DNA of 64,000 nt from Candidatus Thermoflexus tengchongensis (GTDB lineage Bacteria > Chloroflexota > Anaerolineae > Thermoflexales > Thermoflexaceae), in the NCBI GenBank assembly GCA_016842085.1, contig JAEVEX010000006.1, positions 1 through 64,000 of the forward strand. Direction: 5' to 3'. A model generated the notes under the pieces. The model searched no databases. It was given only the letters and a program-made list of their open reading frames with translations, and had not been told where the DNA came from. Of the stretch, positions 56,039 through 63,568 are shown piece after piece. The translations under genes and the position numbers were made by a program. Position 1 is the first letter of the stretch; the number at the start of each line of letters is the position of its first letter.

Positions 56039-57376
56039 TCAGAACTCCTCTTCGGGCGGGACGCCCAGCTTGCGGTGGATGATCGTATCCGCCTGGCGCC
56101 GGATATCGGGCACCGGAATGCGATCCAGAACCGGAGCGAAGAACCCTTCCACAATCAGGCGGGTGGCGACAGGCCGGGAGAGCCCACGGGACATCAAATA
56201 GAAAAGCTCCTCTTCATTGATCTGCCCCACGGTCGCGCCATGGGTGCACCGCAGGTCGTTGGCCATAATCTCCAGGCCCGGGATGGAGTCGGCCCGAGCG
56301 TGCGGGGAGAGGATCAGGTTGCGGTTGGCCTGATAGGCATCGGTCTTCTGAGCCCCCGGATGTGCCCGGATCATCCCCTGCCAAACGGAGCGGGCGCGAT
56401 CTTTAAGGGCGACCTTGTAAAGCAAATCGCTCTTGGTGTAGGGAGCGATATGATCCTGCTCGGTATCATAGTCCGCATGTTGCTGACCGTCAAAGAAGAA
56501 GACGCCCGACATATAAGCGGTGGCGCCGCGGCCGATCAGGGCGACTTCCAGGAAGGTTTTGGTGATCCCCCCGCCCATCCCGATTACCACCCAATCGAGG
56601 GTGCTATCGCGGTCGACGAAAGCCCGCTCGTGGGTGAAATTCCACATATAGCGGCCCCAGTTCTGGAGGGCGATGTAGGTCAGCCGCGCGTTCTCTTTTA
56701 CATGGATCTCCACGGTTCCGTTGTGGAAGGCTGCTCCTACCGCATCGTCAGCCAGCCGCTCGTCGATGAAGGTAACCTGGGCGCCGGGCTCCACCACGAT
56801 CAGGATGCGGGAGAAATCGGTGGGGACGCCCTGGAGCCCGATCACGGCCCGCAAGGGCAGCGTGACCTCCAGATCCCGGGGCACATAGAGGAAGATCCCG
56901 TTGCGCCAGAACGCGGCGTTCATCGCCGCGAAGAAGCCATCTCCCGGCCGCACGATCTGACCCAGATAGGGAGCGACCTGGTCCGGGTGCTCCCGGATCG
57001 CGGTCGGCAGATCCGTGAAAATCAACCCCCGGCGCTCCAGCCGTTCGTCCACCCAGCGGAGAAGGGACTGGCCGTTGAAAAGCAACAGCCCCCCTGCGAG
57101 ATCGTCCCGCCGCTCCGGGATCTGCCGCATTGCCTCCGGCGGGGTTGCCCCATCGCCGACGAGGACGGTCGCCAGGTCCTCGATCGCCAGAGCCCGGATA
57201 TCGGTGCGCCGCCAGGCCTCATCGTTCGGCCCCGGCTTAGGGGTCTCGCGCAGGATCTGCCAGGCCTCCCGGCGGGCCTGACGGAGCCATTCGGGCTCTT
57301 CGCGGGTCTCCAGGAATGCCTCGAACGCTTCGGGGCCAATGCCCCGAGCCTCTCGAATGAGATGCGTCTCCGCCAT
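56039..57376 (-). CDS. sufD: Fe-S cluster assembly protein SufD
   Basis: The 445-residue beta-helix protein is a paralogue of SufB and forms the SufBC2D scaffold. It has the typical PLRAVIGLQGVPTDFSRILI and the late motif DLRCTHGATVGQINEEELFY, with the key Cys and His of the SufD-SufB interface. The ATG at 57376 is about 12 bases after GGGAGG. Confidence 0.93.
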   Translation of the reverse strand: MAETHLIREARGIGPEAFEAFLETREEPEWLRQARREAWQILRETPKPGPNDEAWRRTDIRALAIEDLATVLVGDGATPPEAMRQIPERRDDLAGGLLLFNGQSLLRWVDERLERRGLIFTDLPTAIREHPDQVAPYLGQIVRPGDGFFAAMNAAFWRNGIFLYVPRDLEVTLPLRAVIGLQGVPTDFSRILIVVEPGAQVTFIDERLADDAVGAAFHNGTVEIHVKENARLTYIALQNWGRYMWNFTHERAFVDRDSTLDWVVIGMGGGITKTFLEVALIGRGATAYMSGVFFFDGQQHADYDTEQDHIAPYTKSDLLYKVALKDRARSVWQGMIRAHPGAQKTDAYQANRNLILSPHARADSIPGLEIMANDLRCTHGATVGQINEEELFYLMSRGLSRPVATRLIVEGFFAPVLDRIPVPDIRRQADTIIHRKLGVPPEEEF

Positions 57377-57652: not shown

Positions 57653-60600
57653 TTAACCCACCGAGCCGGACATCTGCAGGCGGATGAGCCGGTTCATCTC
57701 CACCGCGTATTCCATCGGCAGCTCCTTCACCAGGGGCTCGACGAAGCCAGTGACGATCATCGCTGCTGCCTCCTCCTGGGGGATGCCCCGGCTCATCAGG
57801 TAGAACAGCTGCTCGTCGCTGATCTTGCTCACGGTGGCCTCGTGGCCGATGGTGACGTTGTCCTCTTCGATCTCCATATACGGATACGTGTCGGAGCGGG
57901 AGATCTCATCCAGGATCAGGGCATCGCAGTTCACACTGACCACCGACCCTTCCGCCCCCGGGTAGACCCGCACCAGGCCCCGATAGGAGGTGCGGCCGCC
58001 GTCCTTGCTGATGGACTTGGAGATGATGCGAGAGCGGGTGTGCGGTGCCGCGTGGATCGCCTTCCCCCCTGCATCCTGATGCTGGCCGCGGCCTGCAAAA
58101 GCGATGGAAAGGATCTCCCCGCGGGCCCCCGGCTCCATCAGATAAACGCTCGGGTACTTCATCGTCACCTTGGATCCCAGATTGCAATCGACCCACTCCA
58201 TCACCGCATCCCGGTAAACCACCGCCCGCTTGGTCACCAGATTGTAGACATTGGTGGACCAGTTCTGGATGGTGGTGTAGCGGACGCGAGCGCCCGGCTT
58301 GACGATGATCTCCACCACCGCGCTGTGCAGGGAGTCCGTGGTGTAGATGGGCGCCGTGCAGTTGTGCACAGCGAACCCGCGCACCAGATAGGAGTTGGGT
58401 TCCTCAACGTCCAGGTTGAAGACGAACCCCTCGTAAGGCACCCGGCGGATGGCTTTGATCGGGACCAGGAAGTAATCCCCGGCGTCGCGAACCTCCCCCA
58501 TGCGCCGCCCATGCGTCCAGGTGAGGATGAACTGGTCCCTGCGGCGGATCCGACGGCCCCCAATGAAATCCGGGCCGCCCTTGCGGACCTGGATGCTCGC
58601 GTAGATGCCCTGGCGCGCCAGAAGCTCCTGGATCTGCCGGGCCAGCGTCTCCGAAACCGTGGCGATCCGGCGCAGCTCGGCCGAGCCCCGGGGCCATCGG
58701 TTTCCATCCCCGGCGAGGTAAGCGTCGAGGAGGGGTGCGATCTGCTCCGGCGGCAGCGCCATCACCGCCTCGCTCAGACGCTTTTCGGCGGCGCCCTTCC
58801 CTGCATGCTCCAGGCAGAACTCCATCAGCTCCCGGGAGTACACGGAGATCGTGACGGCGTGCTTGCCCCGTATGTGGACCACCTGGGGCTTCTTCCCCGT
58901 CACCTGCTGGATGAGGCGTTTGACCTCCTCAATCGCATGGACCTCATGCTCGCCGAAGGAGAAGGCGACCACCGGCTGGCGAAGCGTCTTGTGGATGTAT
59001 ACGGAGCCCTCCGCCAGGTAGTAACCCAGCAGCCGCAGAAGCTCTGGCGTGAAGGCCGGATTATAACCCTCCGCCTGGACTTTCGGGAAGACCAGGAAAT
59101 CGCCTTCCCGCAGGTCTCCAGCGGGCACATACACCGGCTTTGCCTGAAGCAGGCGGCCGGTATCCACCTCAGGTCGCCATCCATGGCGCGGCCGCCGTCG
59201 GACCCGGACATCCTCCCGGCGCACGATCAGAACGGGATGCTCGGGGGTCAGCCGGAAGGTGTTATAGCGGGAGACCGGCTGGATCTCGATCAGATCCCCC
59301 CGATAGGGTCGAACCATCACCGCGCGGACTTTCGCCTTGCGGCCGGTTTCCGTGACTACGAAGTCCCCTGGCTTCACCGCCTCGATGTTCACCCAGCGGT
59401 CGCCCGTGCTCACCTGCTCCCCGGCCGGGAGACAGCCCTCCACATAATGCACGAACGCCCCTTCCTCGGCGATGATCAGCGTCCGCTCGAACTGCCCCAC
59501 GTTCTGGGCGTTGATGCGGAAGTAGGCCTGGAGGGGCAGATCCACGTGGACCCCCGGCGGCACATAGATGAAAGATCCGCCGGACCAGACGGCGGAGTTC
59601 AGGGCGGCGAACTTGTTGTCATCGGGCGGGACCACCGTGCCGAAATACTCCCGCACCAGGTCCGGATACTCCCGCACCGCCGTGTCGGTATCCACGAAGA
59701 TCACGCCCAGCTTGCGCAGATGCTCCTGGAGGTTGTGATACACAACCTCGGAGTTGTGGACGATGATCCCCTCGGCAACGAAGTTGTGAGGTCCCTCCAC
59801 CTCGATGTCGTAGACAGGCTCCACTCCCGCAGGCGTGATCGCTTCGATGCGGGCGAACCCAACGAACTCAGTGATGTGCTTGCGGAAGGTTGTGTTGTGG
59901 GCGCTGGAGTAGTCCTGATGATACTTCCGCGTCCCGAACCGCTCCAGGCGCCGGGGCGAGCGACAGCCCAGGCGCTCGAAATCCCCCGAGAGCTGCAGGC
60001 GATAGCCGACAATCCGGCGCTTCGGATCCTTCGGGTGTTTGGATTCAAAGCGATGGATGCTGGAGGTCCGGATGCCGCATGTCAGGGCCAGTGCTTGCAT
60101 GTCCTCGATGAGGGCGGGATTCGCGCTGGTCAGCACTACGTCATGGTTCTTCGAATTGTTGCGCACATAACCATCTGCATCCACATAGCCGCCGAGGAAA
60201 GCCAGGCGCTGGTCCTCAGGCGCTGAAAACACCCATGACGGCACCCGCTTGGTATGGGCGTTGCCAGAGAAGCCGTTGGCCTGCAGGTAACGGGCCAGAG
60301 CGGTGGAATAGATTGTTAAACGATAAGGATCGCCGTTTCGGGCTTCCACCCCGAAGAGCTGGCGGGTTATCCGCTGGAACTCCGTGCGCAGGGCTGCTTC
60401 AGACTCGGGGATAGCGATTTCAACACGCCCCTTGCGGCCTGTATGGTCGAAGCGAATGAAGCCATCCCCCATGTAGAGCCCCAGCCACCACATCAGGTCG
60501 GTGGAGGTCCGCTCGGGGAGGTGGACTGCCTTCCATCGGGCGGAGGCCTCTTCGGGCTTCGGCTGTTGGAGCGGTTGCGCCTGCCCGATGTCAGGGAGAC

Positions 60601-61300
60601 GCCGGGCGATGGCCACCAGATCCCCGGGTTTCAGCTCATAAAGGTACTTCCAGGTCAGCTGATATCGTCCGCGCCGCTTGCCAGGGGCCCGCCGGTAATC
60701 CAGGACGAGGAACGGATGATTGGCGGTGGCTCGAATGCTTCGATTGGCCACCCGGACTTCGAAAACCTCCCGTTCCCCCTTGTAGGCGGTGGCCCGGACG
60801 CGGGCCGGGATCAGCCGGCCGGTTTCCTCGTCAAATGAGAAGACAACATCGCCGGGCTGGACGTCCCGGATCGGAACAGGGCCTCGCGCCGTATAGACCC
60901 GGGTGTCTCCGCTCAGACACTCATACTGCGCGCCCACCCCTGCCAGGAATTTGCGCTCTGCCTCGGGGATGCCCAGGAGCTCAAAGGTGCGCCGGATCTC
61001 CTCGGGCACCTCGTCCCAGGAGCGGCTCTTCTTATCCGTGGGCTTGATGTAGTAGTAGATGTCATCGAAATTGATCGCCGAGAGATCCGCCCCCCAGGTG
61101 GGCATGGGCTTGGCGAAGAAGATCTCCAGGGCCCGCAGGCGGAACTCCCGCATCCAGTCCGGCTCCCCCTTGAGCCAGGAGATTTCCTCCACGATCTCCC
61201 GCGAGAGGCCCTTGCGCGCCTTGTAGACATAGCGCTCAGGCATCGAGAAGCCATACTTATAGGTCCCCAGCTCGCTCAAATCAAAGGTCTCCGTCGCCAT
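57653..61300 (-). CDS. sufB: Fe-S assembly protein SufB with two inteins
   Basis: The precursor is 1215 residues from ATG 61300 (GGGAGGGGTC upstream). Removing two inteins leaves about 468 residues, the normal SufB size. Exteins read TYKYGFSMPERYVYKARKGL ... GAQYE | SEVVYHN ... FVHYVEG | CTAPIYTTDS ... ISDEQLFYLMSRGI. SufB is the cluster-building scaffold with SufC and SufD. Intein 1 is residues 128-516 and intein 2 is 623-980 of this frame. Both have Cys first and His-Asn last, with Ser and Cys as +1 residues. The unspliced protein cannot be a working scaffold. Confidence 0.96.
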   Translation of the reverse strand: MATETFDLSELGTYKYGFSMPERYVYKARKGLSREIVEEISWLKGEPDWMREFRLRALEIFFAKPMPTWGADLSAINFDDIYYYIKPTDKKSRSWDEVPEEIRRTFELLGIPEAERKFLAGVGAQYECLSGDTRVYTARGPVPIRDVQPGDVVFSFDEETGRLIPARVRATAYKGEREVFEVRVANRSIRATANHPFLVLDYRRAPGKRRGRYQLTWKYLYELKPGDLVAIARRLPDIGQAQPLQQPKPEEASARWKAVHLPERTSTDLMWWLGLYMGDGFIRFDHTGRKGRVEIAIPESEAALRTEFQRITRQLFGVEARNGDPYRLTIYSTALARYLQANGFSGNAHTKRVPSWVFSAPEDQRLAFLGGYVDADGYVRNNSKNHDVVLTSANPALIEDMQALALTCGIRTSSIHRFESKHPKDPKRRIVGYRLQLSGDFERLGCRSPRRLERFGTRKYHQDYSSAHNTTFRKHITEFVGFARIEAITPAGVEPVYDIEVEGPHNFVAEGIIVHNSEVVYHNLQEHLRKLGVIFVDTDTAVREYPDLVREYFGTVVPPDDNKFAALNSAVWSGGSFIYVPPGVHVDLPLQAYFRINAQNVGQFERTLIIAEEGAFVHYVEGCLPAGEQVSTGDRWVNIEAVKPGDFVVTETGRKAKVRAVMVRPYRGDLIEIQPVSRYNTFRLTPEHPVLIVRREDVRVRRRPRHGWRPEVDTGRLLQAKPVYVPAGDLREGDFLVFPKVQAEGYNPAFTPELLRLLGYYLAEGSVYIHKTLRQPVVAFSFGEHEVHAIEEVKRLIQQVTGKKPQVVHIRGKHAVTISVYSRELMEFCLEHAGKGAAEKRLSEAVMALPPEQIAPLLDAYLAGDGNRWPRGSAELRRIATVSETLARQIQELLARQGIYASIQVRKGGPDFIGGRRIRRRDQFILTWTHGRRMGEVRDAGDYFLVPIKAIRRVPYEGFVFNLDVEEPNSYLVRGFAVHNCTAPIYTTDSLHSAVVEIIVKPGARVRYTTIQNWSTNVYNLVTKRAVVYRDAVMEWVDCNLGSKVTMKYPSVYLMEPGARGEILSIAFAGRGQHQDAGGKAIHAAPHTRSRIISKSISKDGGRTSYRGLVRVYPGAEGSVVSVNCDALILDEISRSDTYPYMEIEEDNVTIGHEATVSKISDEQLFYLMSRGIPQEEAAAMIVTGFVEPLVKELPMEYAVEMNRLIRLQMSGSVG
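58361..59434 (-). mobile_element. Intein 2 in SufB (358 residues, LAGLIDADG type)
   Basis: Starts CLPAGEQVSTGDRWVNIEAV (block A), block B FRLTPEHPVLIVR with the conserved His, endonuclease motifs LLRLLGYYLAEGSVY and IAPLLDAYLAGDGNRW, and block F/G VFNLDVEEPNSYLV...FAVHN. The next extein residue is Cys (CTAPIY). This is the SufB site used by mycobacterial inteins, to my recollection. The acidic residues of both LAGLIDADG helices (E, D) are kept, so a working homing endonuclease is possible. Confidence 0.92.
59753..60919 (-). mobile_element. Intein 1 in SufB (389 residues, LAGLIDADG type)
   Basis: Starts CLSGDTRVYTARGPVPIRDV (block A), block B RSIRATANHPFLVLD with TxxH, endonuclease motifs LMWWLGLYMGDGFIR and LAFLGGYVDADGYVR, and block F/G PVYDIEVEGPHNFVAEGIIV ending HN. 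The +1 residue is Ser (SEVVYHN). Both LAGLIDADG Asp residues are intact. Confidence 0.93.
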
Positions 61301-61311
61301 GACCCCTCCCT

Positions 61312-62091
61312 TCACGCGGTGGGTTGCTCAGCGAACTGCTCGCGCAGCCACTCGTAGCCTTTCTCCTCCAGTTCCAGGGCCAGCTCCGGCCCACCGGAGG
61401 CCACGATGCGGCCGTTATACATCACGTGGACGAAATGGGGCTTGACGTAGTTCAGGATCCGCTGATAGTGGGTGATCAGCAGGATTCCCATGTGGGGGCC
61501 GAAGATCCGGTTGATCCCCTCGGCCACCGTACGCACCCCGTCGATATCCAGCCCCGAGTCCGTCTCATCCAGGATGGCCATCTCCGGCTGGAGCACGGCC
61601 ATCTGGAGGATCTCCAGGCGCTTCTTCTCGCCGCCCGAGAAGCCATCGTTGACATATCGAGCGGCGAAGGAATCTTCCAGCCCGAGCAGGGCCAGCTTCT
61701 CCCGGAGGAGCTTCCGGAACTCCGGGATCGGGATCCCTTTGTCTTCCGGGTTCAGGCGCTTGCGGCGCTCGTTGAGGGCGGTGCGCAGGAAGTTCGCCAC
61801 CGTGACCCCGGGCACCGCCACCGGATACTGAAAGGCCAGGAACAGGCCCAGATGGGCCCGCTCATCCGGGGGAAGCTCCAGAATGTTCTGCCCCTTCCAG
61901 AGCACCTCCCCCTGTTCCACGGTATAAGCCGGGTGCCCCATCAGAACATACGCGAGGGTGGTCTTGCCGGAACCGTTCGGACCCATCAGGGCATGGATCT
62001 CCCCCTTGCGAACCGTCAGGTTCACCCCCCGCAGGACGGGTTTGCCCTCCACCCGAACATGCAGATCCCGAATGATCAGCGCATCCTCCAT
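61312..62091 (-). CDS. sufC: Fe-S assembly ATPase SufC
   Basis: The 259-residue ABC ATPase has Walker [18 protein letters not shown], signature [15 protein letters not shown], and Walker [15 protein letters not shown] (SufC-type D-E-T-D). It drives conformational change in SufBC2D. The ATG at 62091 with GGGAGGTC upstream gives the family length; the ORF track starts 19 codons earlier. It is first in sufCBDS, 11 bases before sufB. Confidence 0.95.
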
Positions 62092-62259
62092 TGTCGTATG
62101 ACCTCCCGACAGGTGGGTGTGGAATTTTCCATCCCCCGCCTCCGTCAATATGGCAGGGGAGAGGAGAGTCCGGAACCAGCGGTCCAGTTCCCGCCAGACC
62201 GCGGGAAAAGCGCCCCCGAGAAGGGAGGGTTCCCTCTTCAGCCCCTGGACTCAGGCCTT

Positions 62260-62288
62260 ATCTTACCACGTCGGCTTGTGTTTGTCAA
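62260..62288 (-). promoter_or_regulatory. Promoter of sufCBDS
   Basis: On the minus strand TTGACA (62288-62283) is followed after 17 bases by TAAGAT (62265-62260). The 5' UTR to sufC is about 160 bases. Confidence 0.75.
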
Positions 62289-62319
62289 TACTTTTTATAG
62301 AAATCAGAGAAATTGACAA
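62282..62319. promoter_or_regulatory. Inverted repeat covering both -35 boxes (candidate SufR operator)
   Basis: TTGTCAAT (62282-62289) and ATTGACAA (62312-62319) are perfect inverted copies separated by 22 bases. Each contains one of the two divergent TTGACA boxes, so one bound repressor could shut both promoters. Confidence 0.6.
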
Positions 62320-62341
62320 TTGCAGCGGGGTCCGGTAAGAT
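62313..62341 (+). promoter_or_regulatory. Promoter of sufR
   Basis: TTGACA (62313-62318) is followed after 17 bases by TAAGAT (62336-62341), the mirror image of the sufC promoter. Confidence 0.75.
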
Positions 62342-62434
62342 AAAGGGAGAGCCGCCTGGGGCGGATGGAGGCCTGGAGGTCCCATCCGGGCTCTGGGGCA
62401 GGAGACTCCTGGTCGGGTGAAAAAGGAGTGGTCG

Positions 62435-63220: not shown

Positions 63221-63568
63221 ATGAATGAGATGAACCCGAATACTCCCTCTCCCTCTCCATCCCCCCAATCCCAGGAGGAGCTGGTCCAGAAAATCCGGGA
63301 GGCCCTTCGGGCGGTGGTGGATCCCGAGATCGGTATGAATGTGGTCCAGCTGGGCCTGATCCGGAACATCGAGATCCAGCCGGACCTCATTCAGATCACC
63401 ATGATCCTCACCACCCCCTTCTGCCCGGCGGGCCCTTATCTTCTGGAGCAGGTACGCTATGTGACGGAGCAGGTCACGGGCCGGCCGACGAAGGTGATCC
63501 TGGGGATGGAGATGTGGGATCCTTCCATGATGGAAGAGGATGCCCTGGCGGAGTGGGGATTGTGGTAG
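63221..63568 (+). CDS. MIP18 family (DUF59) Fe-S assembly factor
   Basis: The 115-residue protein has a Pro/Ser-rich N-terminus and the DUF59 core (IREALRAVVDPEIGMNVVQL, MTTPFCPAG-like TTPFCPAGPYLLEQV with the conserved Cys). SufT/MIP18 proteins help carry clusters to targets. TAAGGAGG precedes the ATG. It lies beside sufR, supporting a suf-linked role. Confidence 0.9.
   Translation: MNEMNPNTPSPSPSPQSQEELVQKIREALRAVVDPEIGMNVVQLGLIRNIEIQPDLIQITMILTTPFCPAGPYLLEQVRYVTEQVTGRPTKVILGMEMWDPSMMEEDALAEWGLW

Follow-up and report, generated by a model that had tools for sequence, protein, structure and literature searches.

In cyanobacteria, the gene for the regulator SufR (Synechocystis sll0088) lies divergent from the sufBCDS operon, and its product, a winged-helix protein with C-terminal cluster cysteines, represses both the suf operon and its own gene (PMC8593673, PMC13421787). 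The cyanobacterial operator reads CAAC-N6-GTTG, with suf and sufR served by separate sites of high and low affinity (PMC6034842). The same motif has been reported for Streptomyces (PMC8593673, PMC13421787, PMC11995493), and in S. avermitilis it is located at the −10 region (PMC11995493). Actinobacterial sufR genes, including Rv1460 of Mycobacterium tuberculosis and the S. avermitilis homolog, are the first genes of their suf operons, and Rv1460 requires three cysteines, C203, C216 and C244 (PMC6034842). According to a 2021 review, reports of SufR were limited to Cyanobacteria and some Actinobacteria (PMC8593673), and none of the papers in the library we searched treats SufR, Chloroflexi and a regulon together. 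Here, we analyze a suf–sufR locus from the chloroflexotal class Anaerolineae that shares the divergent gene order and the protein architecture of the cyanobacterial system and in which a counterpart to its autoregulation and co-repression may exist. Where cyanobacteria use separate CAAC-N6-GTTG sites, this locus features one longer, AT-rich core.

A suf locus with a divergent SufR-type regulator

The window, that is, the whole 64-kb stretch of DNA analyzed here, contains a suf operon on the reverse strand and, divergent from it, sufR followed by a gene for a SufT/PaaD-like protein (Table 1). sufR neighbors the operon, divergent from sufC, in this genome and across at least eight families. The N-terminal winged helix-turn-helix of SufR was recognized above cut-off by PF12840, PF01022 and PF13412. 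Its three ligand cysteines are conserved in suf-linked orthologs and have the same C-X12-C-X27-C spacing as Rv1460, from which the locus differs in the divergent placement of the regulator gene. An extra cysteine, C189, is present in suf-linked orthologs and missing from the unlinked paralogs listed. The spacing here is C-X12-C-X19-C-X6/7-C instead of the cyanobacterial C-X12-C-X13-C-X14-C (PMC8593673), with X19 in place of X13 before the third cysteine. Against the NCBIfam model SufR_cyano (TIGR02702), the protein scored 86 bits over its full length, below the 178.8-bit cut-off. Among solved structures, we found distant winged-helix regulators but no SufR; the best match was 1uly (E = 1e-7).

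Table 1 Features of the suf–sufR region, with coordinates in the window
Feature	Position	Strand	Basis or remark
sufD	56039-57376	-	TIGR01981
sufB with two inteins	57653-61315	-	TIGR01980, PF14890
sufC, first gene of the suf operon	61312-62091	-	TIGR01978, E = 1.8e-103
Outer inverted repeat, TTATCTTACC / GGTAAGATAA	62258-62267 / 62334-62343	.	Perfect pair
suf promoter	62260-62288	-	
suf promoter −10 box, TAAGAT	62265-62260	-	17 nt from −35; TGG extended −10 at 62268-62266
suf promoter −35 box, TTGACA	62288-62283	-	Sequence reading and scan; invariant in genus
Inner inverted repeat, TTGTCAAT / ATTGACAA	62282-62289 / 62312-62319		Perfect; N22 between arms
34-bp element, GTCAATA-N20-AATTGAC	62284-62317	.	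Two outward −35 boxes plus operator core; kept in six congeners
Operator core, candidate SufR site, 24 nt, TACTTTTTATAGAAATCAGAGAAA	62289-62312	.	Conservation, leave-family-out profile, split promoters
sufR promoter	62313-62341	+	
sufR promoter −35 box, TTGACA	62313-62318	+	Sequence reading and scan; invariant in genus
sufR promoter −10 box, TAAGAT	62336-62341	+	17 nt from −35; invariant in genus
sufR, winged-helix regulator, 218 residues	62435-63091	+	C156-X12-C169-X27-C197
SufT/PaaD-like Fe–S assembly protein, downstream of sufR	63221-63568	+	PF01883

The genome encodes a second SufR-like regulator (L074, G000:C1:23371-23970) that is 41% identical and has its own TTGACA-17-TATGCT promoter; we rejected it as a co-regulated gene, its promoter being devoid of the core described below. 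Within the leader of sufR, a search for RNA elements gave a single sub-threshold match, to a c-di-AMP element (18 bits, E = 0.5; gathering score, 38), which we dismissed as chance. The SufB inteins carry LAGLIDADG domains. At the site of the first one, GAQYE|SEVVYH, SufB of one congener (G002, locus L168) has no intein, and insertion of this intein thus varies within the genus.

Two outward promoters account for most of the inverted repeat

A first-pass annotation of this DNA had described mirror-image promoters and, around their −35 boxes, a perfect inverted repeat with N22 between its arms. Both descriptions hold: TTGACA, 17 nt and TAAGAT were found on either strand by direct reading and by a promoter scan, and the repeat TTGTCAAT/ATTGACAA is perfect. 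An outer pair that had escaped the annotation is centered, like the inner repeat, at 62300.5. Both promoters have the sigma-A (sigma-70 type) form of TTGACA, 16–18 nt and TANNNT, from which transcription start sites are predicted near 62348 (+) for sufR and near 62253 (−) for suf. Promoters of this kind are common in the genome, with 85 occurrences of TTGACA-N17-TANNNT (TAAGAT in nine of them) versus two for the reversed control. A further back-to-back TTGACA pair, 8 nt apart, is located at G000:C73:80828-80893.

The repeat as a whole is rare. Allowing up to three mismatches, it matched once in the window versus 0.03 times expected in shuffles; the exact repeat with N22 occurs at a single place in the 3.89-Mb genome (two others at three mismatches), and its 16 letters at window composition would be expected 5e-5 times per genome. 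In congeners, however, the shared repeat shrinks to TGTCAAT/ATTGACA, and variation surrounds the −10 box of sufR, where letters outside the hexamer are not conserved. Only this genome, therefore, has the eighth pair of the repeat and the outer letters flanking the −10 hexamers. The most plausible reading of the arms is as a pair of ordinary, outward-facing sigma-A −35 boxes, which alone would yield most of the repeat.

The annotation had further supposed that both transcripts are controlled symmetrically, a point that the data do not support. The TGG preceding the suf −10 box was kept in all five congeners compared, while the sufR promoter has no conserved extended −10. Given this one-sided element, the promoters are mirrored in sequence but probably unequal in strength.

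A conserved AT-rich core lies between the −35 boxes

Within the genus, 17 of the 24 columns between the −35 boxes are invariant, as opposed to 8 of 34 in the two −35/−10 spacers (Fisher P = 5e-4). When a core-only profile was built without the family of the window, this stretch ranked first in 64 kb on both strands. The operator is best read as this apparent 'spacer' of about 24 nt, with the repeat arms as −35 boxes.

AT-rich DNA at this position could also act as an UP element only, aiding RNA polymerase at both promoters with no repressor involved. UP elements sit just upstream of −35 boxes, and the core, AT-rich inside a window of 64% GC, is directly upstream of both. Its letters are, however, conserved beyond composition: the leave-family-out score beats shuffles of the core's own letters (P = 6.5e-4), and a C at column 22 is nearly fixed. 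The remaining TTGACA promoters of the genome also lack the core, and its retention at both sufR and sufC (see below) points to a specific regulator. We consider the UP-element explanation highly improbable.

The symmetry of the core was assessed at two levels. In the genus of the window, 5 of 12 mirrored pairs are complementary, which is at chance level, and the core is asymmetric, a second departure from the symmetric control proposed earlier. Across 47 distinct elements, the best dyad axis coincides with the exact center of the −35 repeat, where 0.62 of inner pairs are complementary versus 0.50 or less for slid axes; covariation between the operator halves was not detected in these elements (P = 0.94). 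Some lineages feature a near-perfect palindrome, ATATTTAAGATAAATATCTTAAATAT (loci L145 and L146). The simplest reading of this pattern would be a dimer on a degenerate dyad.

The core is retained where the promoters have split

Within the class Anaerolineae, at least eight families have the core between divergent sufC and sufR genes. Six of these (labeled f1, f27, f34, f53, f55 and f59) show the same N22 spacing, with the frame GTCAA-N24-TTGAC, in which flanks are added to the N22 that separates the 6-mers. In family f60, the frame is 2 nt longer between the −35 boxes, and in the large family f35 it is longer by ~9 nt, at about N31, with an extended core. The f35 elements (for example, L018, L042 and L096) represent a variant of the operator layout, in which units resembling AATNATAA occur two or three times at intervals of ~9 bp.

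The divergent arrangement of sufR and sufC is missing from many f27 genomes and from every f21 genome sampled. At these split promoters, sufR and sufC each keep the core beside their own −35 box, and the opposite −35 box is gone. The sufR promoter of f27 reads ATATTTATGATATTTATCTAGTATATTGACA and the sufC promoter AATATACTAGAAAAATATGATAAATATTGACT, the same element in the other orientation. It is thus the core, and not the repeat, that accompanies sufR and sufC when their promoters separate. No other observation speaks as strongly for regulation through the core, with the arms serving as −35 boxes.

The annotation had instead assigned SufR binding to TTGTCAAT/ATTGACAA itself, a reading in which the −35 boxes would be half-sites. 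In its favor, both arms match perfectly, and many families preserve the distance between them. The split promoters, where one arm is left and the core retained, speak against this assignment, as do the shifted arm distance with an extended core in f35 and the presence of TTGACA boxes at many other promoters. We regard the repeat as the binding site as quite unlikely. Two other parts of the earlier interpretation stand. One common site serving both the suf and sufR transcripts is well supported. The site also differs from CAAC-N6-GTTG; neither in the window nor in the compared loci do the 400 nt preceding sufR contain that motif.

The site is largely confined to sufR and sufC promoters

A sequence-only profile made from 30 elements identified one place in the genome of the window and, elsewhere, mainly sufR and sufC promoters. 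With the family of the window left out of the profile, the same place was the only one recovered in this genome (E = 0.16), with no further match up to E = 10 and, thus, no other operator site in either search. In congeners, the leave-family-out profile matched suf loci and, at E = 3, partially one other place. These E values are rough, and the profile was trained on suf loci. Suf-bearing congeners have one site per genome, as seen here. Among class genomes with the highest-scoring SufR, 35 of 37 had a profile match, although the compared genomes are related and such counts do not represent independent events.

Scanning 84,980 prokaryote genomes for an exact pattern, drawn from suf loci although the scan itself was blind to genes, yielded 100 stretches, compared with about two expected by chance (an estimate from 19 fixed bases and 257 Gb). 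Among the 80 of these stretches that were listed, 79 are located at sufR or sufC, 76 of them between both genes, and all but one belong to Chloroflexota by name, the exception being Neobacillus.

Two congeners, G005 and G008, lack sufC, a suf-type SufR and the site; these genomes are 90–94% complete and contain no sufC at E ≤ 1e-60. In genomes without a strong SufR match, the core was missing from seven of the eight sufC promoters scored. Upstream of distant SufR-like proteins from other classes of the phylum, it was mostly missing as well.

Further sites in relatives are weaker (E from 2e-4 to 0.05). They precede a rhodanese–sufE pair, an Fe/Mn superoxide dismutase (SOD) gene (two genomes of one genus), a cysteine-synthase type PLP enzyme, a DtxR-type regulator, an ABC solute-binding protein and SufR-like genes. 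None of these weaker sites is in the genome of the window. The set would fit an Fe–S or iron regulator. The operator-like sites of relatives that precede the SOD, cysteine-synthase type, rhodanese–sufE, DtxR-type and solute-binding protein genes were recorded at L212, L226, L213, L189, L188 and L225.

The main rival to a SufR site is that the core serves an iron-dependent global regulator of the Fur or DtxR type, with SufR not the binder. This genome encodes three Fur-family proteins, words similar to GATAAT/ATTATC occur in elements from other families, the core of relatives resembles a Fur box in parts, and the weak sites upstream of the SOD, DtxR-type and solute-binding protein genes are of a kind that such a regulator might control. 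A global regulator would, however, be expected to have many sites, not the single one found in this genome and in each suf-bearing congener. G005 and G008 retain three Fur-family proteins yet have no suf genes, sufR or site. Furthermore, sufR itself is preceded by the site wherever the promoters are split, and the seven sufC promoters without it come from genomes without a strong SufR match. Taken with these observations, an iron-dependent global regulator appears unlikely.

Discussion

We favor the core as a SufR operator on the basis of its conservation, its retention at split promoters, its near-exclusive placement at sufR and sufC, the Rv1460-like cysteines and the absence of the site from G005 and G008. 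Counted against this assignment are the non-palindromic core in the genus, the lack of covariation between its halves, the 86-bit SufR score and the three Fur-family proteins. On balance, a two-way promoter with a central operator, at which holo-SufR would repress suf and sufR together, is the likely arrangement.

The proposed mechanism draws on the layout and on the known behavior of cyanobacterial SufR (PMC8593673, PMC13421787); SufR as the binder, repression as the outcome and cluster state as the signal are all inferred from these. Two sigma-A promoters would stand back to back, with their −35 boxes flanking one AT-rich operator of 24–26 bp. A SufR homodimer carrying a [4Fe-4S] cluster would bind the operator and lie against both −35 boxes, blocking RNA polymerase on both sides and keeping sufCBD and sufR (with sufT) off while Fe–S supply is adequate. 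Cluster loss would release SufR and turn both transcripts on.

One site placed to block two promoters is a common repressor layout. This locus differs in having its two −35 boxes immediately next to the operator, with a spacing that several families share, and in the natural promoter splitting that parts the −35 box from the operator.

For the class as a whole, we think it reasonably probable that SufR of Anaerolineae reads an operator unlike CAAC-N6-GTTG, an AT-rich element of 24–26 bp (approximately ATATTTAtGATAwwTATCtTAAATAT) fixed between outward −35 boxes, so that one repressor closes two promoters, and that in some lineages the regulon has come to include sufE, SOD, cysteine synthesis and metal regulators. 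If true, an operator conserved across a class of Chloroflexota would extend Fe–S feedback control to this phylum and provide a second SufR DNA code for comparison with CAAC-N6-GTTG. It would also offer a clean natural case of promoter boxes and operator parted by evolution. Control of Fe–S assembly in these bacteria becomes testable on a 34-bp probe.
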